From positions 1 through 62,984 of the forward strand of contig VMSU01000229.1 in NCBI GenBank assembly GCA_013792005.1: a stretch of DNA of 62,984 bases, in the 5' to 3' direction. Positions within the stretch are counted from its first letter, which is position 1. Each line of letters opens with the position of its first letter. The notes under the pieces were generated by a model. The model did no database searches. It was not told where the DNA came from and worked only from the letters and a program-made list of their open reading frames with translations. The translations under genes were made by a program, and so were the position numbers. Below, in pieces: positions 1,006 through 62,895 of this stretch. Origin of the DNA: Desulfobulbaceae bacterium. Its GTDB lineage: Bacteria; Desulfobacterota; Desulfobulbia; Desulfobulbales; VMSU01.

Positions 1006-2916
1006 TCAAAAATCCAGCTGAAAACTATAGACATCATCCTCCAGATGACTGGTCACCATCAGTCCACACCGATTAAACACGGCCTGCATCTTTCTATTCT
1101 CACGTAAAACTTCGGCAGTAAACCCTGCAATCCCGCTCTGTTTGGCAATCACCACCAGGGCATCAAAGAGCAGTCGACCTATTCCTCGCCCCTGCCAATC
1201 ATCACGGACCAAAAAAGCGACCTCGGCACGATTGGTCTTTTCATCCAGGTAATATCTTCCCACCGCAATAATGTCATCACCGTGGGCCTCAGGGATTGTC
1301 ACCACCAACGCGACATTACTTCGATGATCAACATAGACAAAATCAAGAATCTGCTTAGCGCCGAATTGCTTGGTCCTGGTCATGAAACGGTGATACAGGG
1401 TCTCCTGCGAGAGTGAATAGACCAAATCCTTAATCCCCTGCTCATCGGTTGGCAAAATCGGTCGAAGAGAGACCTCGACCCCGCCGGGCAGAACCACACT
1501 CTTCTTCCGTTCACCAGCCGCCACCACAAAACCGGCCTGAACATGGGCATGTTCACCACGAATCAGCTTGGCCTCAATGGCCTCCTGAAACAACTGCTCC
1601 CTGAACTCGGGATGGGCAATGGAGATCAAGGCGAGCGCTCGTTCCTGCACCGTTTTGCCGTGAAGATAAGCAACCCCGAATTCACTGACCACGTAATGGA
1701 CATCACCCCTGGTAATCCCAACACCGGCGCCAGGGCTGAGCCGGGCAACAATACGCGATGTCTGATTCTGCTCATCCAAGGCGGCAATGACCATGATGGC
1801 CTTCCCGCCTGGTGATCGAGCAGCGCCCCGGGCAAAATCTATCTGACCGCCGATGCCGGAATAAAATTTTTCACCAATCGAATCGGTACAGACCTGGCCT
1901 GTCAAATCTATCTCCATGGCCATGTTGATAGCCACCATTCGCTCTAAACGGCAAATAATGGCAGGGTCGTTAACATACTCGGTGGGCCTAAAGGAAAAGA
2001 GCGGGTTACGATCGACAAGGTCATACAACCGGCGAGTTCCCATACAGAATGAAGTGACGAGCTTACCTCGATCCAGAGACTTCTTGCGGCCGGTCAACAC
2101 CCCCGCTTCAACCAGCTTGATGATGCTGTCAGTGATCATCTCGGTATGAAGACCAAGATCGCGCTTATCGAGAAGATGATTCATCACCGCCGGAGGAATC
2201 CGGCCTATCCCTGGAATCCGGCCCATCCCGAACTGGAGGGTATCGCCATCCTGAATCAAAGCGGCGATATGCCGGGCAATGGTATCCGTCGCCGGATGGG
2301 GCGGATTGGACACCCGCTCAAGAAGCGGGACGTCAATCGGCACCAGCACATCAAGATCATTGACATGGAGGAGGCTGTCCCCGTAAGTGTAAGGCATCTG
2401 CTCGTTAACCAGAGCGATGACCTGGGAGGCGTTTTCAGCGGCACTCTTGACAATATCCACTGAAATCCCGAGACTGACCCGTCCCCGTCGATCAGGAGGA
2501 GAAACCTGAATCAGAGCGACGTCGATCGGCATTCTGCCGGAATTGAATAACCCAGGGATATCGGAGAGATGAACCGGGGTATAATCACCAAAACCTTCCT
2601 GGATCTGATCCCTGACATTGTGACCGATAAAAAAACTGTTCACCCGAAAATGATCGGCAAACTGCTTGGCGGCGTACAACGCCTCTCCTTTAGTCAAAAG
2701 ATGAATGATTTCGACATCAAGCAACTCATGGGCCCTGTCAGTCAAAGCCTGCACCAACTCCTGAGGCTCAGCGCAACCAGTGCCAATAAAGATCCGCTGC
2801 CCCGGACGGAAGGATCGCACCGCCTTCTTGGCAGTAGTGATCATGGACCGGTAGGTCTCCTGCCAGTTCGGGTCAAAAAAAGCGTTATCAGTGTTGATCA
2901 TAAAGTCTCTGGTCAT
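1006..2916 (-). CDS. Acetyl-CoA hydrolase/transferase fused to a C-terminal GNAT acetyltransferase
   Basis: Residues 1-470 match the acetyl-CoA hydrolase/4-hydroxybutyrate CoA-transferase family, which moves or releases CoA through a glutamyl-CoA intermediate. The motif GLHTEMITD puts the likely catalytic Glu at residue 259, and SEFGVAYLHGKTVQERA (411-427) is the family's C-terminal signature. Residues 480-636 form a separate GNAT domain with the acetyl-CoA pyrophosphate loop QGRGIG at 575-580. At 636 residues it is about 200 longer than a plain hydrolase, matching a whole added domain. The GNAT part may acetylate lysines of nearby enzymes, as AcuA or Pat do; this is inference from context. 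The ATG at 2916 lies just downstream of a repeat and has no clear ribosome site, so ATG 2901 is an alternative. The gene follows the acyl-CoA synthetase on the same strand. Confidence 0.85.
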   Translation of the reverse strand: MTRDFMINTDNAFFDPNWQETYRSMITTAKKAVRSFRPGQRIFIGTGCAEPQELVQALTDRAHELLDVEIIHLLTKGEALYAAKQFADHFRVNSFFIGHNVRDQIQEGFGDYTPVHLSDIPGLFNSGRMPIDVALIQVSPPDRRGRVSLGISVDIVKSAAENASQVIALVNEQMPYTYGDSLLHVNDLDVLVPIDVPLLERVSNPPHPATDTIARHIAALIQDGDTLQFGMGRIPGIGRIPPAVMNHLLDKRDLGLHTEMITDSIIKLVEAGVLTGRKKSLDRGKLVTSFCMGTRRLYDLVDRNPLFSFRPTEYVNDPAIICRLERMVAINMAMEIDLTGQVCTDSIGEKFYSGIGGQIDFARGAARSPGGKAIMVIAALDEQNQTSRIVARLSPGAGVGITRGDVHYVVSEFGVAYLHGKTVQERALALISIAHPEFREQLFQEAIEAKLIRGEHAHVQAGFVVAAGERKKSVVLPGGVEVSLRPILPTDEQGIKDLVYSLSQETLYHRFMTRTKQFGAKQILDFVYVDHRSNVALVVTIPEAHGDDIIAVGRYYLDEKTNRAEVAFLVRDDWQGRGIGRLLFDALVVIAKQSGIAGFTAEVLRENRKMQAVFNRCGLMVTSHLEDDVYSFQLDF

Positions 2917-2920
2917 AACC

Positions 2921-2960
2921 GCTCAGGTTATCGGTTTACGGTTATCAGTTAACGGTTGAT
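2921..2960. repeat. Family C repeat fragment (C1)
   Basis: Contains CTCAGGTTATCGGTTTACGG followed by GTTATCAGTTAACGG, the terminal sequence shared with copies near 45914, 49335, 56479 and 62221. Only one end is present. It lies immediately upstream of the hydrolase-GNAT start. Confidence 0.65.
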
Positions 2961-2973
2961 GATTTCTATAAAT

Positions 2974-3010
2974 GATGGTCTCGCAAAAAGTCCGGGGATG
3001 CTAAGTCCGA
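2974..3010. repeat. Family D repeat fragment (D1)
   Basis: Begins GATGGTCTCGCAAAAAGTCC, the end sequence of family D, also at 5846-5925 in both orientations and at 12949. Only the left end is present. It lies just beyond the stop of the acyl-CoA synthetase at 3018. Confidence 0.6.
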
Positions 3011-3017
3011 CTGGCTC

Positions 3018-5114
3018 CTAACTCCCTACTCGCAGATTGATCTTGGCATCGACCACCACCGGCTCGGTACCAAATTCGCAGACCAAGAGCGGATTGATCT
3101 CAATCTCTGCGATCTGCGGAAAGTCGGTGGCCAACTGACTGATTTTTTGCAGACAATGGGCAATGCTTGCCATATCGACCCCACCCTCCCCGCGAGTCCT
3201 GACCAGGATCTGGTACGATTTGGTATTTCTCAGCATGGTCATGGCCTCATCAAAGGTGATAGGAGCCAAATTAAAGGCCACATCCTTCATCACCTCCACA
3301 TAGATACCCCCCAGACCGAACATCAGCATCGGCCCAAATTGGGGATCCCGATGCATTCCCATGATCACCTCCGGACCTCGGTCCAACATCTTCTCGATAT
3401 AAATCCCGTCGATCCAGGCATCAGGGGCACGCTGGCTCATCCTGAGCATCATCAGATCAAAACCGTCCCGAATTCCCTGACGATTGGTGATATTGAGTCG
3501 AATCCCACCCATATCGCTCTTATGAACGATATCCGGCGACACGATCTTCATTGCCACCGGATAACCGATTCCCTCGGCATGCTCGATGGCTTCCTCCACG
3601 GTAGTGCTCAGGTGGCCAGGAGGCACCTGAAAATCATAGGCCTTAAGAATGTCCTTAGCCTTGACTTCGGCAATATGCAGACGATTGGTTCGGATCCGGC
3701 GAGAGATGATCCGCTCAACCCGACGCCGATTCACCTTAAAACGAGTAACCACCCGCGGCGGTCGATTGCGCCAGGCCACATACCCAACCATGGCCTTGAG
3801 CACGGCAACCGCTCCTTCTGGCGAATCAAAGGCAGGCACTCCTCCGTGAAACAACAAATCCCGAGTCGCGTTAGTATCACCTCCCAGCACACAGACAGAG
3901 AGAGGCTTCTGACCATGATTGCAGGAGACAATTGCCTGAGCAATGGCAAGGGTCTGATCCGCTGCGCCACGCCTGGCGATAATAACCACCACCGCATCGA
4001 CATGACTGTCATTGACTGCCGCCTCAAGCGCCACCCGGTACCGTTCCGGCCCGGCATCGCCAAGAAGGTCCACTGGATTATAGATAGTGGCTGCATCCGG
4101 CAGTTCGGCCCGGAGAATGCTTGCCGCCGTCGCATCAAGATAACTGATCGCAAGTCCTGCCCGCTCTATGGCATCCACGGCCATAATCCCCGGACCACCG
4201 GCATTGGTCAGCACCATAATCCGCTTCCCCTTAGGCAGAGGCTGTAGACTAAACGAAGTGGCCAGGTCAAAAAGGGCGCTCATACTCTCCGCCCGGATCA
4301 CCCCGGAACGCCGGAACGCGGCGCCATAAGCGGAATCTTGGCCAATCAACGCCCCAGAGTGAGCGGCAACCGCCTTTCGCCCGGACAGGGTAGTTGCAGC
4401 CTTCAACATGATCACCGGCTTACGACTGGTGGCATATTCCGCCGCTTTGACAAAAGCGTCACCGGCATTAATGCTCTCAAGATAGCCGATAATAACCTTG
4501 GTCTGAGGATCGAGGGCCAGAGCTCTGAGCAGATCAATCTCGGACAATTCCGCCTTGTTGCCAAGACTGACCATCTTGGCAAGGCCCAGCCCCACCCCAG
4601 CCAGACGCTCCAGAAAAAGTGCGCAGAGAGAACTGGACTGAGAGATCATCGAAATACCGCCAGGCTCAGGAAATGACTCGGTGTCAAAGGCAAAGAGCGA
4701 ATGAGCAGTATTAATGACGCCAAGACAATTTGGACCTAAGAGTCGCACGTCACGAAGTCGGCACATCTCGGCAATCTGGGTCTCCATTTCAGCCCCAGCC
4801 TCACCCGCTTCCTTAAAACCCACCGACAGCACGATCACCGCTTTAGCCCCGGCGCCAATGGCATCACGGACAGCATCCCGGCACTGAGCGGCAGGAACGG
4901 CGATCAAGGCAAGATCGATCCTCCCTGCAAACTGAGAAATCCCAGGATAGCAGCGGAGCCCAAGCACCTCATCAGCCTTCGGGTTTACCGGCACCACGGT
5001 CCCGGCATACCCTCCCTGAATAATATTAGCCAGCAACCGGTGGCCGAAGGCGCCCTCACTGCGTGATGCGCCGATAACGGCAATGGTCTGAGGTTGAAAC
5101 AGGGCGTCAAGCAT
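3018..5114 (-). CDS. ADP-forming acetate/acyl-CoA synthetase, fused alpha and beta subunits
   Basis: Likely interconverts acyl-CoA, ADP and phosphate with acid, ATP and CoA, conserving energy when run toward acetate. Order of domains: CoA-binding Rossmann fold (1-130, with VIGASR near 13-18), succinyl-CoA-synthetase-like domains (about 150-450) and ATP-grasp (about 475-695). His252 in VAAHSGAL fits the phosphorylated histidine of the family, and VSPDIVHKSD is the ATP-grasp signature. The 698 residues equal a complete single-chain enzyme. No GNAT domain is attached here, unlike Pat proteins; a GNAT domain instead ends the next gene. It follows the CBS-ACT gene by 36 bases, consistent with one transcript. 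Substrate is not determined; acetate is the simplest guess given the acetyl-CoA hydrolase partner. Confidence 0.88.
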   Translation of the reverse strand: MLDALFQPQTIAVIGASRSEGAFGHRLLANIIQGGYAGTVVPVNPKADEVLGLRCYPGISQFAGRIDLALIAVPAAQCRDAVRDAIGAGAKAVIVLSVGFKEAGEAGAEMETQIAEMCRLRDVRLLGPNCLGVINTAHSLFAFDTESFPEPGGISMISQSSSLCALFLERLAGVGLGLAKMVSLGNKAELSEIDLLRALALDPQTKVIIGYLESINAGDAFVKAAEYATSRKPVIMLKAATTLSGRKAVAAHSGALIGQDSAYGAAFRRSGVIRAESMSALFDLATSFSLQPLPKGKRIMVLTNAGGPGIMAVDAIERAGLAISYLDATAASILRAELPDAATIYNPVDLLGDAGPERYRVALEAAVNDSHVDAVVVIIARRGAADQTLAIAQAIVSCNHGQKPLSVCVLGGDTNATRDLLFHGGVPAFDSPEGAVAVLKAMVGYVAWRNRPPRVVTRFKVNRRRVERIISRRIRTNRLHIAEVKAKDILKAYDFQVPPGHLSTTVEEAIEHAEGIGYPVAMKIVSPDIVHKSDMGGIRLNITNRQGIRDGFDLMMLRMSQRAPDAWIDGIYIEKMLDRGPEVIMGMHRDPQFGPMLMFGLGGIYVEVMKDVAFNLAPITFDEAMTMLRNTKSYQILVRTRGEGGVDMASIAHCLQKISQLATDFPQIAEIEINPLLVCEFGTEPVVVDAKINLRVGS

Positions 5115-5819: not shown

Positions 5820-5845
5820 AGATCTCCTCCTCTTCTTTCATATTT

Positions 5846-5925
5846 GATGGCGTCGCAAAAAGCCCGATCTACTGCGTTGCAGCGCCCTTTTGCTTAGACA
5901 TACCGTGACTTTTTGCGAGACCATC
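5846..5925. repeat. Family D repeat, complete copy with terminal inverted repeats (D2)
   Basis: Eighty bases bounded by GATGGCGTCGCAAAAAGCCC on the left and its near inverse ACTTTTTGCGAGACCATC on the right, so the transcript can fold into one long hairpin. It lies between the AcuC-like and AcuB-like genes, where it could dampen read-through. Related ends occur at 2974 and 12949. Confidence 0.8.
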
Positions 5926-6934: not shown

Positions 6935-7105
6935 GGTCAGCCGAACTTCCTTTACTCACGGCAGCTAACGCCGCGAATCGGTTACATTGTGACAAAGGGG
7001 ATATCACCAGAATAAATCCACGGTGGATCCGAGCAGCACATCTCCCAACTACTGAACTAAGGGACTCGGAAATTACCAATTTCCAAGTCCCTAAGCATAA
7101 AATTT

Positions 7106-7259
7106 GTAATCGTTCACCAGAAGCGTTGAACGTGCGGATTTCACCGGACTGTAAACGTTTGCCGGGCACCCCATCTGCTTTGTCAGCGGTCTGCTCATGT
7201 GCAACTAGCACACTTTGCAGACCGCTTTCGCGCATCTGGGGTGCCCGGTGAACGTTTAC
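7106..7259. repeat. Family A bipartite inverted-repeat element (A1)
   Basis: A 154-base copy. The tail (7106-7150) begins GTAATCGTTCACCAGAAGCG. The module (7151-7259) has 23-base inverted ends: GTAAACGTTTGCCGGGCACC pairs with the module's last bases GGTGCCCGGTGAACGTTTAC. Inner arms AGCGGTCTGC and GCAGACCGCT add to the stem. The two outer ends of the whole element are also inverted. Other copies: 11722, 49381, parts at 13052 and 21342. No coding capacity is seen. Confidence 0.88.
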
Positions 7260-7523: not shown

Positions 7524-9566
7524 ATGACCTCCACGAACAATAGCGCCCCTGTATCGCATCCAATCCCCATCCGCCAGGGGATGCTGATCCTCCTTGCGGT
7601 CTGGACCGTCATTATCTCCGTCTCTCTCATCTGGACGATGTGTGACTTCCAACAGATGATCATTCAGCTTGCCACCATAGAGGCAAATGCCAGTTTTAAC
7701 AATGACCTCAGTTACCGGCGATGGGCAGCCAAACAGGGCGGCGTTTATGTTGTCCCAAGCGCCTACACCCCTCCCAACCCCCACCTCAGCTTCCTCCCCA
7801 ACCGCGACCTCACGACCACTGCAGGCGTGCACCTGACCTTGGTGAATCCGGCATATATGACCCGCCAGGTCCATGAGATGGCAAAAGAACTGTTCGAGAC
7901 CAAGAGCCACATCACCAGCCTCAATCCAATCAGGCCTGAGAATGGTCCAGACCTCTGGGAACGGCAAGCGCTTGAGTCCTTTGCCAATGGGATCAACGAA
8001 GTATCATCGCAAGACACGACATCCGGCACTCCCTACCTCCGCTTCATGCGCCCCATCATCACCGAAAAGCCATGTCTCAAATGCCACGCACACCAAGGAT
8101 ACAAGACTGGAGATATCCGGGGAGGTATCTCCGTATCAGTACCCATGGGCAAGTATTACGCACTGCGAAAAGAGCGCTTCTCCCGCCTCATATTCTTACA
8201 CCTTATCGTCTATGGTGTCGGCTGGGCCGGACTTGCGCTTGGCACTCGCCGGATACAGGCCAAAATCATCGAAAACGAACGTATCCAAGCAGACCTCAAC
8301 ACCAAAAAAAATAATCTCTCCCTGTTTCGCTCGCTAATAGACCAAGCCAATGACTCACTCTTCATCGTCGATCCAGACACCTCCAGGTTGCTGGATATTA
8401 ACGAAAGGGCTGCCCATGTTCTTGGCTTCAAACAGAGACATCTGTTAACCAAGTCCGTCATGGACATTGATCCGACCTTCCCCGACATCCAAGCATGGAA
8501 CGCCCATGTCCAAGAGATGAAAAACAGAGAGCAAATGACCATAAACAGCCATCACCGTTGCCAGGATGGCACTCTGATGCCAGTAGAGGTCACACTCCGC
8601 TATCTGACCCATGACCAGCAAGACTTTATCATTGCATCGTCCCGTGACATCACTGAACGCAAACTAAAAGAAATTGAACTGGAACAGTACCAAACTCAGC
8701 TTGAGACCATGGTCGAGGAACGCACGGCAGAGCTGCGAGGCAAGACCGTTGATCTGGAAATGAGTCAACAGGAACTGGAATCCGCCAACCTCAAATTACA
8801 AGAACTCGATCGTTTAAAATCCATGTTCATCGCCTCCATGAGCCATGAACTTCGCACGCCGCTTAACTCCATCATTGGCTTTTCGAGCATTCTCCTCGAA
8901 GAGTGGCCCGGACCGCTCAACCCTGAACAGAGAACCAACCAGGCCATCATCCTCAATAACGGCAGGCACCTGCTATCCTTGATCAATGACATCATCGATA
9001 TCTCCAAGATCGAGGCAGGGATGCTCGAATCTCAGGACATGGAATTCGATCTCGATGAATTGATCGCCGAAACCACCATCAATTTCAGTCAAGAAGCTCA
9101 CAACAAAGGCATCTCGCTGAACACCAACCCCTGTGCCTGCCGCCTGCTAACCGACCGACGTCGTCTCTTGCAATGCCTGATAAATCTGGTAAGCAACGCT
9201 GTCAAATTCACTGAACACGGCATGGTTAGCGTTTATGCAAAAAAACTGGCCGACAGCCGTATCGCCATTTCCGTCAATGACACCGGTATCGGTATCTCCA
9301 CGGAAGACCAAGCCCGACTTTTCACCCCCTTCCTGCGCCTAGAACCATCCAACAACAAGTACCCCGGCACCGGTCTCGGCCTGTACTTGAGCCACAAACT
9401 GGCCAACGAAGTGCTTCAAGGCGACCTGACAGTCGTAAGCGCCCTGAACCAGGGCAGCACTTTTACCCTTATTATTCCAACCCGAAGGGCAAGGGGTGAA
9501 GTGGTGAAAAAAATTAGTAACTATCCACCTTCTGACCCAGAAAGATGCCGAAGCCCAGAACCGTAA
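7524..9566 (+). CDS. Membrane sensor histidine kinase with DUF3365-type CxxCH sensor and PAS domain
   Basis: A two-component kinase anchored in the inner membrane. TM1 spans about residues 20-40; an extracytoplasmic domain (43-215) resembles the DUF3365/Tll0287 family and carries PCLKCH at 183-188, a c-type haem attachment motif; TM2 spans about 222-240. A PAS domain (265-378) ends in SRDITERK and a coiled coil leads to HisKA with His441 in SMSHELRTP. The ATPase domain shows the N-box around NLVSNAVKF and GTGLGL near 616. Haem there would suit sensing redox state or a diatomic gas. No receiver is fused; the partner may be encoded next door. Residues 665-680 and the stop codon are encoded by repeat B1, so the C-terminus is repeat-derived. 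Kinase core is similar to that of 13464-15638. Confidence 0.88.
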   Translation: MTSTNNSAPVSHPIPIRQGMLILLAVWTVIISVSLIWTMCDFQQMIIQLATIEANASFNNDLSYRRWAAKQGGVYVVPSAYTPPNPHLSFLPNRDLTTTAGVHLTLVNPAYMTRQVHEMAKELFETKSHITSLNPIRPENGPDLWERQALESFANGINEVSSQDTTSGTPYLRFMRPIITEKPCLKCHAHQGYKTGDIRGGISVSVPMGKYYALRKERFSRLIFLHLIVYGVGWAGLALGTRRIQAKIIENERIQADLNTKKNNLSLFRSLIDQANDSLFIVDPDTSRLLDINERAAHVLGFKQRHLLTKSVMDIDPTFPDIQAWNAHVQEMKNREQMTINSHHRCQDGTLMPVEVTLRYLTHDQQDFIIASSRDITERKLKEIELEQYQTQLETMVEERTAELRGKTVDLEMSQQELESANLKLQELDRLKSMFIASMSHELRTPLNSIIGFSSILLEEWPGPLNPEQRTNQAIILNNGRHLLSLINDIIDISKIEAGMLESQDMEFDLDELIAETTINFSQEAHNKGISLNTNPCACRLLTDRRRLLQCLINLVSNAVKFTEHGMVSVYAKKLADSRIAISVNDTGIGISTEDQARLFTPFLRLEPSNNKYPGTGLGLYLSHKLANEVLQGDLTVVSALNQGSTFTLIIPTRRARGEVVKKISNYPPSDPERCRSPEP

Positions 9567-9669
9567 CTATTCAGCAGTGCCGCAGATGCTAGGCATCGGC
9601 CTGCGATGTGTGCTTTTCGCACATGAACAGGCCGATAACAACGCAGATGTGGCACTGCTGGACAGTTAC
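9517..9669. repeat. Family B bipartite inverted-repeat element (B1), overlapping the kinase 3' end
   Basis: Tail 9517-9562 and module 9563-9669. The module has inverted ends GTAACTATTCAGCAGTGCC and GGCACTGCTGGACAGTTAC plus an inner stem around CGGCCTG. The tail overlaps the last 16 codons and stop of the kinase gene. A nearly identical copy in the opposite orientation is at 57148-57298. Layout equals family A, and both families share a centre close to GGCCTGCTCATGTGC. Confidence 0.88.
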
Positions 9670-11721: not shown

Positions 11722-11953
11722 GTAAACGTTCACCGGGCACCCCATCTGCTTCGCAGTCTCACAAACTCGCTTAGCTGTTAACGGCCTGCTCATGTGCAAC
11801 TAGCACATTTCGCAGACCGCTTTATTGACCGACGAAGCGGGTCAATATAAATCGCGCAGGTAAGTGACCGTAGGGAGACTCCGGCTGGAGCACCCGGCAA
11901 ACGTTTACAGTCCGGTGAAATCAGCACGTTCAACGCTTCTGGTGAACAATTAC
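11722..11953. repeat. Family A element, enlarged variant (A2)
   Basis: Opposite orientation to A1. Module 11722-11908 is about 80 bases longer than other copies, with extra sequence near 11755-11780 and 11825-11885; the tail 11909-11953 ends CTTCTGGTGAACAATTAC. Begins 15 bases after the hybrid kinase stop. Part of its extra sequence (CGCAGTCTCACAAACTCGC) recurs inverted in the fragment at 13052-13108, so that variant has also dispersed. Confidence 0.82.
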
Positions 11954-12218: not shown

Positions 12219-12950
12219 ATGAAAAATATCCCCTTACGGGACAGGATTATCCTGGCCCTTGATGTTCCCGACCCAGAAACCGCAAAAAAACTGGTTCTAG
12301 CCACCGAATCAAAACTCGGCTTCTATAAAGTCGGGCTCCAACTGTTCATGGCGGACTGGTTTCACACCGTAGATTGGATTGTTGACCGCGGCCACAAGGT
12401 AATGGTTGACCTTAAATTTTTCGACATCCCCGAGACCGTCCACCTGGCAGTCAAACAACTTATGGCCCGCCGAGTCTCTTTAGCCACGGTTCATGGCAAC
12501 GATGCCATTGTCAAGGCCGCCATGGATGCTACTCGCGACAAAAACGCAGACGAAAGCCTGAAAATCCTGGCAGTTACCGTATTGACCAGCTTCGGAGAAG
12601 ACGACCTGCGGGCCATGGGCATGACCCAAAGCATCGAGGATCTCGTCTATTTTCGCGCCAAAAGGGCATTGGATCTGGGATGTGACGGGGTGGTTTCCTC
12701 GGGCCTCGAGGCTGAACGACTACGTAAGCAGTTAGGAGAAAAGCTCCTGATTGTCACCCCAGGCATCAGGCCAGGGGCCAACATCGCAGAGAACGACGAT
12801 CAGAAACGGGTGATGAGCGCGGGTCAAGCCATTGCCGCCGGCGCCGATTATGTTGTCGTAGGACGACCAATCTCCAAGGCAGAAGATCCTGATCAAGTCA
12901 TCACCACCCTCCAGGAAGAGATCCAGCAGGTAGTCGAAAGTCACAGTTGA
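12219..12950 (+). CDS. pyrF: Orotidine-5'-phosphate decarboxylase
   Basis: Final step of UMP synthesis: decarboxylates OMP to UMP. The 243-residue TIM barrel has the catalytic block VMVDLKFFDIPETV (Asp-x-Lys-x-x-Asp-Ile-Pro), an early LALDVP with the substrate-contact Asp, HGND near residue 95, and a phosphate-binding TPGIRPGA near 185 with VVGRPI near 215. The frame is open 108 bases further upstream, but that part lies next to repeat C2 and shows no family match; the ATG at 12219 gives the normal N-terminus (MKNIPLRDRIILALDVP). Its TGA stop overlaps the first two bases of repeat D3. No other pyrimidine gene is nearby. Confidence 0.95.
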   Translation: MKNIPLRDRIILALDVPDPETAKKLVLATESKLGFYKVGLQLFMADWFHTVDWIVDRGHKVMVDLKFFDIPETVHLAVKQLMARRVSLATVHGNDAIVKAAMDATRDKNADESLKILAVTVLTSFGEDDLRAMGMTQSIEDLVYFRAKRALDLGCDGVVSSGLEAERLRKQLGEKLLIVTPGIRPGANIAENDDQKRVMSAGQAIAAGADYVVVGRPISKAEDPDQVITTLQEEIQQVVESHS

Positions 12951-13050
12951 TGGCGTCGCAAAAAGTCCGATCTACTGCGTCCCCGTCCAACACCAGCGGG
13001 GATTGAACTAAATTACGTGGCGGTTTTGCTCGTTCGGCATACCATAATAT
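12949..13050. repeat. Family D left half (D3) joined to other repeat sequence
   Basis: Begins GATGGCGTCGCAAAAAGTCC, the family D end, overlapping the pyrF stop codon. The matching right end is absent; the sequence instead runs into a family A fragment at 13052. Confidence 0.65.
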
Positions 13051-47065: not shown

Positions 47066-49219
47066 CTACTTTAGCTTTATTAAGCTTGCGGGTAAGCGGA
47101 TGATAAAAGTGGCTCCTTGACCAAGCGCCCCCCGTGCCACAATCTCTCCACCATGGCGGGCCACGATTTTTTGGCAGGTCGTGAGCCCCATGCCGGTTCC
47201 CTCATATTCCCGCCGACTGTGCAGCCGTTCCAGCGGCTTAAAGATCCGCTCGGCATCACGGGGATCAAAACCAATACCGTTGTCCTGAATCAGGATCTCG
47301 TAAAAATCCTCATCATCAGCCACCCCACCCCTAAGCACCACCCTAGGCGAGGCGCCAGGCTTGCTATATTTCAGGGCATTGGCAATAATGTTTTGAAACA
47401 ATTGGCGCATCTGTACCCGGTCCCCGCCCATTCTTCCCAGATCTCCAATCTCAATCAAGGCTTTACTTTCCATAATCCGCCCCTCAAGATCCTGGAGGAC
47501 CTCTCGTACTAAATCATTGAGATCGATCTCTTCATAGGACTGGCCTCCGGACGTCACTTGAGACAATGACAAAAAGCCATCAACCAGCTGGCGCATATGT
47601 TCCGCTGCGGCTTTAATACGCGACAGATACTCCTTCCCCTTTTCATTGAAACAGTGAGCGTACTTATTGCCCAAGCGCTCAGTGAAAGCCCCGATCAGCA
47701 TCAACGGCTCCTTTAATTCATGGGATGCCACATGGGCAAATTGATCAAGTTCCTGATTTGATGCAGAAAGCCGGGCCGTCAACTCCACCAGGGCCTGCTC
47801 AGTATGGCGGCGGACCTTAATCTCCTGTTTTAGTTTTTGGTTGACGCTCAGCAACTCGGAGGTCCGCTCGTCGACCAATTCCGCCAGACGGAAATGATGG
47901 CGCTCCAACTCGGCCTCCGCCATCTTCAAGGCCGTAATGTCTGATGAGATGCCATTGGCATACCAACGACCATTCTTAAATTCCACATAGTTGGCCCGTT
48001 CATGAATCCAGACCCAGTTCCCATCCTCCCTCAGAAAACGATATTTCACATCATACAACCCAATCTCATCGCCTCCCTCCTCTGTTGCGTCATCTAATTG
48101 CGAGCAAAACGAACGGCGTAGTGCCACACCATCAGGTAAAGAGGCATCAAAAAATCGATAATAGGCATGGCGAACCAGATCGCTGTCATTAGGATGAATG
48201 GCTCTCCGGCGGATCGAAGGGTCACCCTGCAGGGTTTCGGCGGAATAGCCATAAATACGAAACGAATTAGGGCTGACATAGACGAAATCCCCATCCTGAT
48301 CAGCACGCCAGGTAACATCCGGCATGGTTTCAATCAAACACCGGTAGTGCCGATCGCGCTCGCATAATGCCCGTTCAGCCTCTAACCTAGCTGTAATATC
48401 CTGAATAATAACAATCCCGCCCACTGCCTCGCGATTAATATCACCAAGAAAAGTACCAGTGACAATTATACTGCGCGACTCTCCCTGAATCGTAATATCA
48501 ACCTCAAGATCAACCCCTCCACCCTTGCCATGCAGCACCTCGTGAAGGTCACAGGCTAAGCGAAACTCGTCTCCTAAGACCTGATAGCAGTCTTCACCGA
48601 TATGGTCTCTGCCAGTAACCATGAAGAATCGATCAAAGGCCTTGTTGGTTTCGAGCAGGTGAAGGTCCTGATCCACAATAAAAGCGGGCTCAGCCATTCT
48701 CTTGAAGATGGAAGAATATCGACGGCGCTCTTGCAAGACATAACGATTCGCCTCTCGCAGCTTGCGATGAAAAAACACTGTTTCCAGACGAACTGACTCA
48801 ACCACAACTCCGCGCAGGAAATGCTCGTGATAGGAATCATAAACCGCTGACGATACCCCAGTTGCCGAAAGGTCATCGTCTTGGCTAGAGTGCCCCAGCA
48901 GAGTGGGAACCTGGCAGGCAATAGTAATGGCGTGACCGCAATCAAGCCCCACCCCCCGGACCAAACGGGCAAAATAACGGCCCGTATTCAGAGCCGACAA
49001 CTTCAGCGCTTGGGGCAACATTGGGTGATTGTGGCAAAGAGCAATGTCTTTGACTAAGGAAGAAAGCAGAGAAACAAATAGATTAGCGGGAGGATCGCAG
49101 GCAGGGCCTACCTCCTTACGAACTCTGCCGACAAGTTCCTTGCTGACTGCAGCAAGCCTGGCAGAGGAGAGGGGAATGGATCGTTTTGAGTCAGGACAAG
49201 TCATCACTCTCCTTGACAA
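47066..49219 (-). CDS. Soluble sensor histidine kinase with two PAS domains
   Basis: 717 residues, no transmembrane segment. An N-terminal helical domain (about 1-155) I do not recognise, PAS1 (about 165-278, ending IIQDITARLE), PAS2/PAC (about 285-435, WRADQDGDFVYVSPNSF and WIHERANYVEF), a coiled coil, HisKA with His500 in VASHELKEPL, and an ATPase domain with NIIANALKY, DNGIGFD and GTGMGL. The E-L-K-E-P variant and the core are like phytochrome-type kinases, but no bilin-binding GAF domain is seen. ATG at 49204 is an alternative start. Convergent with the ParB-like gene; no receiver gene is adjacent. Confidence 0.88.
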   Translation of the reverse strand: MSRRVMTCPDSKRSIPLSSARLAAVSKELVGRVRKEVGPACDPPANLFVSLLSSLVKDIALCHNHPMLPQALKLSALNTGRYFARLVRGVGLDCGHAITIACQVPTLLGHSSQDDDLSATGVSSAVYDSYHEHFLRGVVVESVRLETVFFHRKLREANRYVLQERRRYSSIFKRMAEPAFIVDQDLHLLETNKAFDRFFMVTGRDHIGEDCYQVLGDEFRLACDLHEVLHGKGGGVDLEVDITIQGESRSIIVTGTFLGDINREAVGGIVIIQDITARLEAERALCERDRHYRCLIETMPDVTWRADQDGDFVYVSPNSFRIYGYSAETLQGDPSIRRRAIHPNDSDLVRHAYYRFFDASLPDGVALRRSFCSQLDDATEEGGDEIGLYDVKYRFLREDGNWVWIHERANYVEFKNGRWYANGISSDITALKMAEAELERHHFRLAELVDERTSELLSVNQKLKQEIKVRRHTEQALVELTARLSASNQELDQFAHVASHELKEPLMLIGAFTERLGNKYAHCFNEKGKEYLSRIKAAAEHMRQLVDGFLSLSQVTSGGQSYEEIDLNDLVREVLQDLEGRIMESKALIEIGDLGRMGGDRVQMRQLFQNIIANALKYSKPGASPRVVLRGGVADDEDFYEILIQDNGIGFDPRDAERIFKPLERLHSRREYEGTGMGLTTCQKIVARHGGEIVARGALGQGATFIIRLPASLIKLK

Positions 49220-49334
49220 TCAGCACCGGCTACAATCCTTTTGGACTCAGGAAATTCTAATACATCTGGATCGAGCGTAGGCTTACGCGCCCCCTAAATG
49301 ACCGGGACATATACAACTGTAACAATAAGTTGAC

Positions 49335-49380
49335 TACTCAGGTTAACGGTAATCAGTTATCGGTTTGCGGTTAAAAGAAT
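49335..49380. repeat. Family C copy, left part, interrupted by A3 (C5 left)
   Basis: TACTCAGGTTAACGGTAATC onward matches the family C end; stops exactly where family A copy A3 begins. The rest resumes at 49535. Confidence 0.82.
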
Positions 49381-49534
49381 GTAAACGTTCACAGGACACC
49401 CCGTCTGCTTTGTTAGCGGCCTGCTCATGTGCAACTAGCACACTTCGCAGACCGCTTTCGCGCATCTGGGGCACCCGGTAAACGTTTACAGTCCGGTGAA
49501 ATCCGCACGTTCAACGCTTCTGGTGAACGATTAC
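49381..49534. repeat. Family A bipartite inverted-repeat element (A3), inserted in a family C copy
   Basis: Module 49381-49489 (GTAAACGTTCACAGGACACC to ACCCGGTAAACGTTTAC) and tail 49490-49534 ending TTCTGGTGAACGATTAC. 154 bases, as A1 but opposite orientation. Flanked on both sides by the halves of family C copy C5. No clear target duplication. Confidence 0.9.
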
Positions 49535-49625
49535 CAATCATACATCACGTAGATACATGATGTCAGTGCGTACTCCGCCATTGGTAGGGTTCGTTAACCG
49601 TCAACTGTCAACCGTAAACTGATAC
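49535..49625. repeat. Family C copy, right part (C5 right)
   Basis: Continues family C after the insertion: CATGATGTCAGTGCGTACTC, as in C4, and GTTAACCGTCAACTGTCAAC to the end near GTAAACTGATACC. Confidence 0.78.
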
Positions 49626-49675
49626 CTTAAACAATTACTGTTCATAACAAAACGCTCAAAACTGCCCTACCATAA

Positions 49676-51067
49676 TCACACAGCTCCTGATGGTCCGGTA
49701 CTCCCATAATCCTTCCGTTGTCGTTCCTTCAACAGGATACGAAGCGAGGTGGAGTCCAGACCCAGCTCCGAGCGGAACTGGTTGACCAGAAAGCGGTAAT
49801 ACGAAAAATGCACCCCTTTCGGGTAATTGACATAGACGGCAAAGGTCGGTGGCCGTGTCGCAACCTGAGTAGTATAATAGAACTTCAATCGTCGCCCCTG
49901 ATGCAAGGCCGGGGGATGGGCTTCAACCGCCTTCTGTAGCACACGGTTCAAACGACCGGTCGTTACCTTGGTCGAGAACTGCTTGTAAATGGTATCAATC
50001 AGGCCAAAAATCTTCATCACGCCTTGACCCGTCAGGGCCGACAGGGTAACGGTTGGCGCATAACCAATAAAACGGGTGGCCATCTCAATTTCAGTACGCA
50101 GATTTTTTTGCCGCTTCGGGTCGTTTTTCAACATATCCCATTTATTAAGGACTACGAGGCAGGCCCTGCCCCGTTCAACGGAATAGCCAATGACCTTGGT
50201 ATCCTGCTCAGTGATACCTTCTTCGGCATCGATCAGGATCAAAACGATATCGCAGTCCTCCATTGAGCGCAAGGCCCGCATCACCGAGAACTTCTCGATC
50301 TTGGCCGAAACCTTGCCCTTGCGCCTGATCCCGGCAGTATCGATCAGGAGGTATTGTTGCCCATGACGCTCAAGGAGAGTATCCACAGAATCCCGGGTCG
50401 TGCCGGGAACGTCGGATACCACCATCCGTTCTTCGCCGAGCAGACGGTTAACCAAGGAGGATTTACCAACGTTGGGCCGACCGATAAAGGCAAGTCGGAT
50501 AGCGTCCGGCTTTAATTCATCTGGTTCCGGAACTGGCTCCTCAATCCAACTCACCATTTCGGTGAGGAAATCATTTAAACCATAGCCATGAGCGGCAGAA
50601 ACCGGCCAGAGATGCGGAACTCCCAGGGAATAAAAAGACGAAAGCCGGTCATTCTCCTGAGAATAATCGTCAATCTTATTGACCACAAAGAACAGAGGCT
50701 TCTCAGTTTTACGCAACTGAGCCGTCAACTCGTAGTCATCAGGAGTCAGTCCCTCTTTTCCATCCATAATCAGGACGATGATATCAGCGTCTGCTATTGC
50801 CTGCCAGCTCTGTTCGCGGATCAGGGCGGAAATTTTGACTTCAGAAGCATCATGGCCCGAGGCAGCAGGATCAAACTCAATGCCGCCGGTATCAACCAAA
50901 ATAAACATCTTACCATCAAAGACTACCCGCTCAAAATGACGGTCTCTCGTTACCCCAGGCGCCGAATCAATAATCGCTTTATTCTGCCGAGCTAAGCGAT
51001 TAAAAAGTGACGATTTCCCAACATTTGGTCGTCCCACCAAAGCTACAATGTGCAATTTATTGTTCAT
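49676..51067 (-). CDS. der: Ribosome-assembly GTPase Der (EngA)
   Basis: Two G domains in tandem and a KH-like C-terminal domain act in 50S ribosome maturation. Domain 1: GRPNVGKSSLF, DTGGIEF, NKID; domain 2: GRPNVGKSSLV, DTAGIRRKG, NKWD; the KH-like part is about 350-463. Length 463 fits. Its start overlaps the end of the AmgK-like gene by 11 bases, so it is last in the lpxD-to-der minus-strand operon. The gap to the repeat block at 49535 is about 50 bases. Confidence 0.97.
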   Translation of the reverse strand: MNNKLHIVALVGRPNVGKSSLFNRLARQNKAIIDSAPGVTRDRHFERVVFDGKMFILVDTGGIEFDPAASGHDASEVKISALIREQSWQAIADADIIVLIMDGKEGLTPDDYELTAQLRKTEKPLFFVVNKIDDYSQENDRLSSFYSLGVPHLWPVSAAHGYGLNDFLTEMVSWIEEPVPEPDELKPDAIRLAFIGRPNVGKSSLVNRLLGEERMVVSDVPGTTRDSVDTLLERHGQQYLLIDTAGIRRKGKVSAKIEKFSVMRALRSMEDCDIVLILIDAEEGITEQDTKVIGYSVERGRACLVVLNKWDMLKNDPKRQKNLRTEIEMATRFIGYAPTVTLSALTGQGVMKIFGLIDTIYKQFSTKVTTGRLNRVLQKAVEAHPPALHQGRRLKFYYTTQVATRPPTFAVYVNYPKGVHFSYYRFLVNQFRSELGLDSTSLRILLKERQRKDYGSTGPSGAV

Positions 51068-56434: not shown

Positions 56435-56478
56435 TTTTTAAGCTCCCCCCAGTCAAAAACACAATGTCTTTCGTACCT

Positions 56479-56629
56479 GCTCAGGTTGTCGGTTTACGGT
56501 TGACAGTTGACGGTGAATAGTTCCTACCAATAGTTGAGCACACTCTGACCCTGAGTATCATGCGATGATTTATGACTAACCATGATTCTCTTAACCGTAA
56601 ACCGATAACTGATTACCGTTACCCTGTGT
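56479..56629. repeat. Family C repeat, long copy (C6)
   Basis: 151 bases with inverted ends CTCAGGTTGTCGGTTTACGG and AACCGTAAACCGATAACTG to CCCTGTG. Nearly the same sequence as C7 at 62221, including the centre GAGTATCATGCGATGATTTA. Lies upstream of lpxD, between it and the IHF-like gene. Confidence 0.87.
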
Positions 56630-56710
56630 CGTTACTATCTCTCTTTCATAATCACATGACACATCTTTCAAATTCGCTGGCTTTTACCATAAAAGACGAC
56701 ACTGCAGAAC

Positions 56711-62059: not shown

Positions 62060-62220
62060 TTATGGCCAATTACACCAACCTCTAACAAATCAAAAAAAAC
62101 GTAACTGCTCAGCTTCCCAACCGGGATGCCGCCGGTATTTATTATGAAAGATACAAATCGTCAGAAAAATGTATCGATTTCATTTAGATATAGATATCGA
62201 CAAATGATTTGTAACTTAGA

Positions 62221-62369
62221 AGGTTATTGGTTTATGGTTGACAGTTGACGGCGATTGGGTCCTGCCAATGGCTGAGGACACACTGACATTGAGTATCATG
62301 CGATGATTTATAACTAACCATGATTCTTTTAACCGTAAACCGATAACTGATTACCGTTAACCTGTGTAG
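62221..62369. repeat. Family C repeat, long copy (C7)
   Basis: Near-identical in order to C6 (56479-56629): GGTTGACAGTTGACGGCGAT, GAGTATCATGCGATGATTTA, TTAACCGTAAACCGATAACTG and final AACCTGTGTAGTT. Inverted ends remain visible. Confidence 0.87.
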
Positions 62370-62895
62370 TTAAAAAAACAAACTATTCTCCTGAAAATTC
62401 CCCATCCAAGATACGACTTTGTATCATTCAAACCAAGAAACTCCATCTTCATAACTAGCACTTCTTGACCCTTCTTATTTATCGCAGGTTGGGTTAATCC
62501 CACATCCGACATCAACGCTATCTCTGCACAGAGAGGCTAATTTAGCATAGCCCAACCGGACCAATGACTGACGGAAAACGCACAGCCCATGGTGCTTGCG
62601 AAATCCCCCCTCACCCAGTGCCAGCCCCCCACATTTGAGCATTACCACCCATACCCTAAGTTGCAAAACCCAAGAAGAAAATAATTAATTTTTTTCTTTT
62701 CCCCGTAAAGCTCTCTAACACTGGGCATTCGCAATTGGTCTTAACACTTACTACTACATTGAAGGCATAAATATTGCCTAATAAAACAAATTTTAACAAA
62801 ACCCATAACACAAAATATTCTTCCTCAATCACTCAAGTGCAAAATGCCACGACAAAAACTCTGGCTATTTGCTCAAAATGCTGAACGAGACCGCC
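62370..62895. other. Leader region of the last gene, with a possible structured element
   Basis: About 525 bases, AT-rich toward the right. Holds a foldable element at 62487-62557: GGTTGGGTTA pairs with TAGCCCAACC, with TCTCTGCACAGAGA as an inner palindrome. No known riboswitch recognised. Confidence 0.35.

Follow-up and report, generated by a model that had tools for sequence, protein, structure and literature searches.

The der–histidine kinase spacer and its nested repeats

The window, i.e., the whole stretch of 62,984 nucleotides analysed here, is contig C229 of a 4.0-Mb draft genome in 252 contigs, and a search with its der gene returned Desulfobulbaceae and other deltaproteobacterial MAGs as the nearest named relatives. 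The der gene, encoding the GTPase EngA, and a PAS/histidine kinase gene are separated by a 456-bp spacer in which a family C element is interrupted by a complete family A element (Table 1); the names A, B and C are labels of the present scan. A scan of the window against Rfam gave no match. The der–kinase gene order is conserved in the same-genus genome G002 (kinase 58% identical), the spacer of which is ~95 bp long and lacks both A and C, the divergence being too great for base-by-base placement of the target.

Table 1. Positions of the genes and repeat elements in the window
Feature	Position	Strand	Evidence or remark
PAS/histidine kinase gene	47066..49219	-	borders the nest-holding spacer on one side
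der (EngA) GTPase gene	49676..51067	-	borders the nest-holding spacer on the other side
Family A MITE-like element, 154 bp	49381..49534	+	consensus and copy comparison, end duplications in the family, hairpin
Family A 45-bp tail, internal end to outer right end	49490..49534	+	
Left piece of interrupted C	49329..49380	+	degenerate terminal repeat GTTGACTACTCAGG
Right piece of the same interrupted C	49535..49638	+	terminates in AATTAC
Family A copy (L029)	7106..7259	-	exact 8-bp duplication TAAAATTT
Long family A copy, 232 bp	11722..11953	+	exact 8-bp duplication ACACTTGT
Family B element, 153 bp, A-like architecture	9517..9669	+	exact 8-bp duplication AAAAATTA
Uninterrupted C, 163 bp	56473..56635	-	8-bp flanks with 2 mismatches
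Uninterrupted C, used as reference	62208..62373	-	compared with the interrupted copy

The nested A copy opens with the left end GTAAACGTTCACA, continues with an imperfect hairpin (z −4.36) up to an internal end at ~49489 and closes with the tail and the right end GGTGAACGATTAC. It differs from the 154-bp consensus at 4 positions and is 91–97% alike to eleven other full copies of the same length class, with E values from 3e-70 to 1e-56 that exclude a chance resemblance.

The sequence to its left corresponds to positions 4–51 of the C consensus at 96% and that to its right to positions 61–163 at 77%; when the two flanks are joined by script they match 38 other distinct C copies across the join, and this in-register alignment shows a single C copy split in two. 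The contrast between a conserved left and a divergent right part is a subfamily trait, being the same in the C copies L064 and L072. Thus, the sequence-only reading was right that a complete 154-base A interrupts C and in placing the interruption between 49380 and 49535, while the limits it had assigned to C were too narrow.

The interrupted C has 156 bases versus the 163 of the consensus and about 6–7 bp are missing at the join, in agreement with the earlier statement that little sequence had been lost; in the register of the closest subfamily (L064, L072) the loss amounts to ~6 bp, CATGGT. The earlier observation that an obvious target duplication is lacking also stands: the 14-base flanks of the nested A share no 8-mer better than 4/8, as is typical of random pairs, and an ordinary insertion would have left ~14 bp more than are present at the join. 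When the middle of the interrupted C was searched genome-wide (20-mer, ≤3 mismatches) the sole match was the locus itself, and no closer uninterrupted relative emerged. The ends of this host copy are degenerate and its own duplication is not visible, both features being consistent with its age.

The nest is therefore real and of an ordinary kind, an A element lying inside an older C element of a different family, with the 8-base footprint missing in this instance. It supports the reading that C was already in place when A inserted and so supplies a relative date, C before A.

Copies, target duplications and tails of the three families

Family A has at least 48 matches in its own genome, 40 of the 132 candidates of a first look having been scored, and the 41 fetched loci together with the window yielded 46 distinct A-like intervals. 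Both outer ends are recognisable within two substitutions in 32 copies, here termed end-intact, loci having no recognisable outer pair being set aside; an 8-bp target duplication is exact in 24 of these, carries one mismatch in 4 and is absent in 4, namely the nested copy (L001), L002, L015 and L193. With 28 of the 32 end-intact copies duplicating 8 bp exactly or with one mismatch, the absence characterises this individual copy and not family A, and the former suggestion that it may mean an unusual mechanism finds no support where the family is concerned. The duplications flank the outer ends of units of 153–235 bp, so that the tail is part of the mobile unit, as had been claimed.

As expected for MITEs, families A (154/183 bp) and C (163 bp) are short, have no transposase gene, are present in many copies and display terminal inverted repeats and target duplications, the nested A itself having inverted ends and no duplication. 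Slow decay of the duplication was considered and rejected: the nested A is young (4/154 differences) and copies at 12–18% divergence keep theirs (L018, 12%, and L029, 18%, both exact), while L002, with 0 differences from the consensus, has none. Discrete loss, recombination or atypical insertion could instead account for its absence.

Family C is 163 bp long with ends GTAACTRCWCAGGTT, the short inverted ends of A and C alike starting with GTAA, and has 85 matches genome-wide (conserved 34-mer, ≤3 mismatches). After removal of one spurious row (window 15473), 24 distinct copies with recognised ends were scored for 8-bp duplications, of which 11 are exact, 2 have one mismatch, 5 have two and 6 have five or more. 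One C copy, L065 (G000:C183, about 12.0–12.2 kb), is split by a further, unrelated element of 90 bp, which has GGGAC ends together with a TTAG (or TTA) repeat; C copies thus serve as targets in the ordinary way. A 31-bp relic of this type of element occurs at 7061–7091 of the window.

Family B has the same architecture as A, with an end, a tail of 45–46 bp, an internal end, a hairpin and an end. Of 22 stretches sampled, two from the window (one of them listed in Table 1) and 20 fetched, 12 bear outer-end duplications with no more than one mismatch: eight exact at 153 bp, three with one mismatch at 151–153 bp and one exact at 282 bp. An additional B copy, L257 (G000:C183:11306–11412), is tail-less, only 107 bp long and flanked by an exact 8-bp duplication, suggesting that transposition can also make use of the internal end; the remaining nine stretches show no duplication within one mismatch or no scorable pair, some of them lying at contig ends. 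A clean parallel to the nest is found in the same der–kinase spacer of the same-genus genome G003 (L163), where a B-type element of 154 bp, its ends of the GTAACTATCCAGC type, is located inside another repeat and flanked by the exact duplication GCCATCGG; in G001 (L164), a second same-genus genome, the site is empty and GCCATCGG is single.

IS66-type ends and the probable mobilising enzyme

The IS66 transposase domain PF03050 has no match in the draft genome that carries the nest, so that the enzyme is inferred; the domain is present in 12 of 28 related genomes. No autonomous IS66 element sharing these ends was found in that draft either, the nearest being L228 (positions 1240–3653) in G006, a genome of the same bacterial family. 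L228 is an intact IS66-family element of 2414 bp with 16-bp perfect ends GTAACTGTTCAGGTCA, a pair of a kind that none of 500 resampled sequences yields, and with an exact 8-bp duplication; it codes for an IS66 transposase (PF03050/NF033517) and a DruA-domain protein. The DruA-domain gene lies beside that of the transposase, and G006 has three other DruA matches; DruA (PF14236) was discarded as a possible partner, having no match in the genome of the nest.

GTAA ends with exact 8-bp duplications occur at three IS66 loci of this bacterial order, L216 and L227 (both GTAAGCG) and L228. According to PMC11946415, IS66 elements are characterised by GTAAGCG ends and by repeats of 8 bp, and Paracoccus IS66 elements are listed with 8 bp in PMC3281130; GTAA termini and 8-bp target duplications are found in both the A and C families. 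Counted by eye, the C end GTAACTGCTCAGGT agrees with that of L228 at 13 of 14 positions, the B end GTAACTGTTCAGC at 12 of 13 and the A end at only 9 of 13. Taken together, the GTAA ends, the 8-bp duplications and the end matches to L228 make mobilisation of the IS66 type likely in the case of B and C, and plausible in that of A. That some other transposase likewise generating 8-bp duplications moves these families is rather unlikely: it would fit the lack of the IS66 DDE domain in the genome and the weak terminal match of A, whereas the end sequences and duplication length named as IS66 traits in PMC11946415, the three loci of the order and the close agreement of the C and B ends with L228 all speak for an IS66 enzyme.

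With IS66 family insertion sequences A, B and C share the GTAA start and the 8-bp duplications, as well as, for C and B, the resemblance to the ends of L228; unlike these, they are mostly 107–282 bp long and code for no transposase. They resemble bacterial MITEs such as MITEPsy1, which was also found inside an insertion sequence (PMC3189936), in being short, gene-less, repeated in many copies and nested, with terminal inverted repeats and target duplications. They differ from MITEPsy1 by 8-bp instead of 4-bp duplications and by their GTAA ends, and A and B by a third, internal end followed by a ~45-bp tail. A, B and C may thus be regarded as IS66-type miniature families of a known kind, for which no published name or description was found in the available text of the literature on IS66-type MITEs, IS66 end sequences and IS66 combined with DruA/DUF4338. 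With this probable assignment, the Desulfobulbaceae-related genome is seen to contain several miniature families of IS66 type that reshape its gene spacers.

Possible origins of the nest

It is highly probable that the nest arose when a non-autonomous IS66-type miniature element, A, inserted into an older C within the der–histidine kinase spacer. An IS66-family transposase acting in trans would have carried A into C from elsewhere and, during insertion or later, ~14 bp would have been lost at one edge, comprising one 8-bp duplication and 6 bp of C; alternatively, two A copies might have recombined, leaving no duplication. What weighs against this explanation is that the nested A has no duplication in spite of its youth, that the draft lacks the IS66 transposase domain, that the A ends match those of L228 only partially and that the genomes compared include no near strain in which precisely this site is empty.

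The alternative that A and C are a single composite repeat moving together was put to the test that the sequence-only reading had proposed, namely whether A and C are always joined in this way, and it fails. Besides their junction at the nest, such a repeat could be suspected from L002, which adjoins a C-like remnant missing its end, and from L005 and L014, where A is inserted 10–12 bp outside a C end, an arrangement possibly above chance and seen in these two cases only; the A copies of L196 and at 11722 are farther from C. However, only 1 of the 46 A-like intervals, the nest itself, has C on both sides and one more abuts the remnant, C has 85 matches genome-wide, A and C have separate 8-bp duplications, and in L005 and L014 A stands beside C with a duplication of its own (exact and with one mismatch, respectively). 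A and C being mostly apart, a composite is exceedingly improbable. Insertion of A into C is expected ~1.1 times by chance from 46 A and 85 C of 163 bp with 13.9% of non-coding sequence, a window value taken as typical of the genome, so that the nesting alone is about what copy number predicts.

Flanks from different places would have been brought together if two A copies had undergone homologous recombination or if the assembly were chimeric at the 154-bp repeat, and the identity of A copies (up to 97%), the fragmented draft, the unequal similarity of the two C pieces to the consensus and the duplication-less L002 with C at one side only would all be accommodated. Yet the two flanks both belong to C, share one orientation and are in register (position 51, then 61), the inequality recurs in the L064/L072 subfamily and inspection by eye of the other fetched copies without a duplication revealed no reciprocal flank, which makes this origin quite improbable. 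An atypical, deletion-making insertion, leaving no duplication and removing ~6 bp of target, fares only slightly better and is still unlikely: the two A copies joined to C are duplication-less and close to the consensus (4 and 0 differences), but these are two cases only, L002 retains just one side of C, and the great majority of end-intact A copies do have a duplication. A speculative extension, for which we would claim little probability, is that A and B are three-ended (outer end, ~45-bp tail, internal end, hairpin, outer end), that the transposase is able to act at the outer end as well as at the internal one and that insertion of such an element into the GTAA-ended C may proceed without duplication, generating a deletion. 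The end-and-tail architecture offers testable material on the choice of ends by IS66-type transposases.

A further repeat family, TTGATGGCGTCGCAAAAAG, is present in gene spacers at 5838–5877 and 12941–12980 of the window and in L092 and L155, its occurrences extending over this genome and related MAGs.
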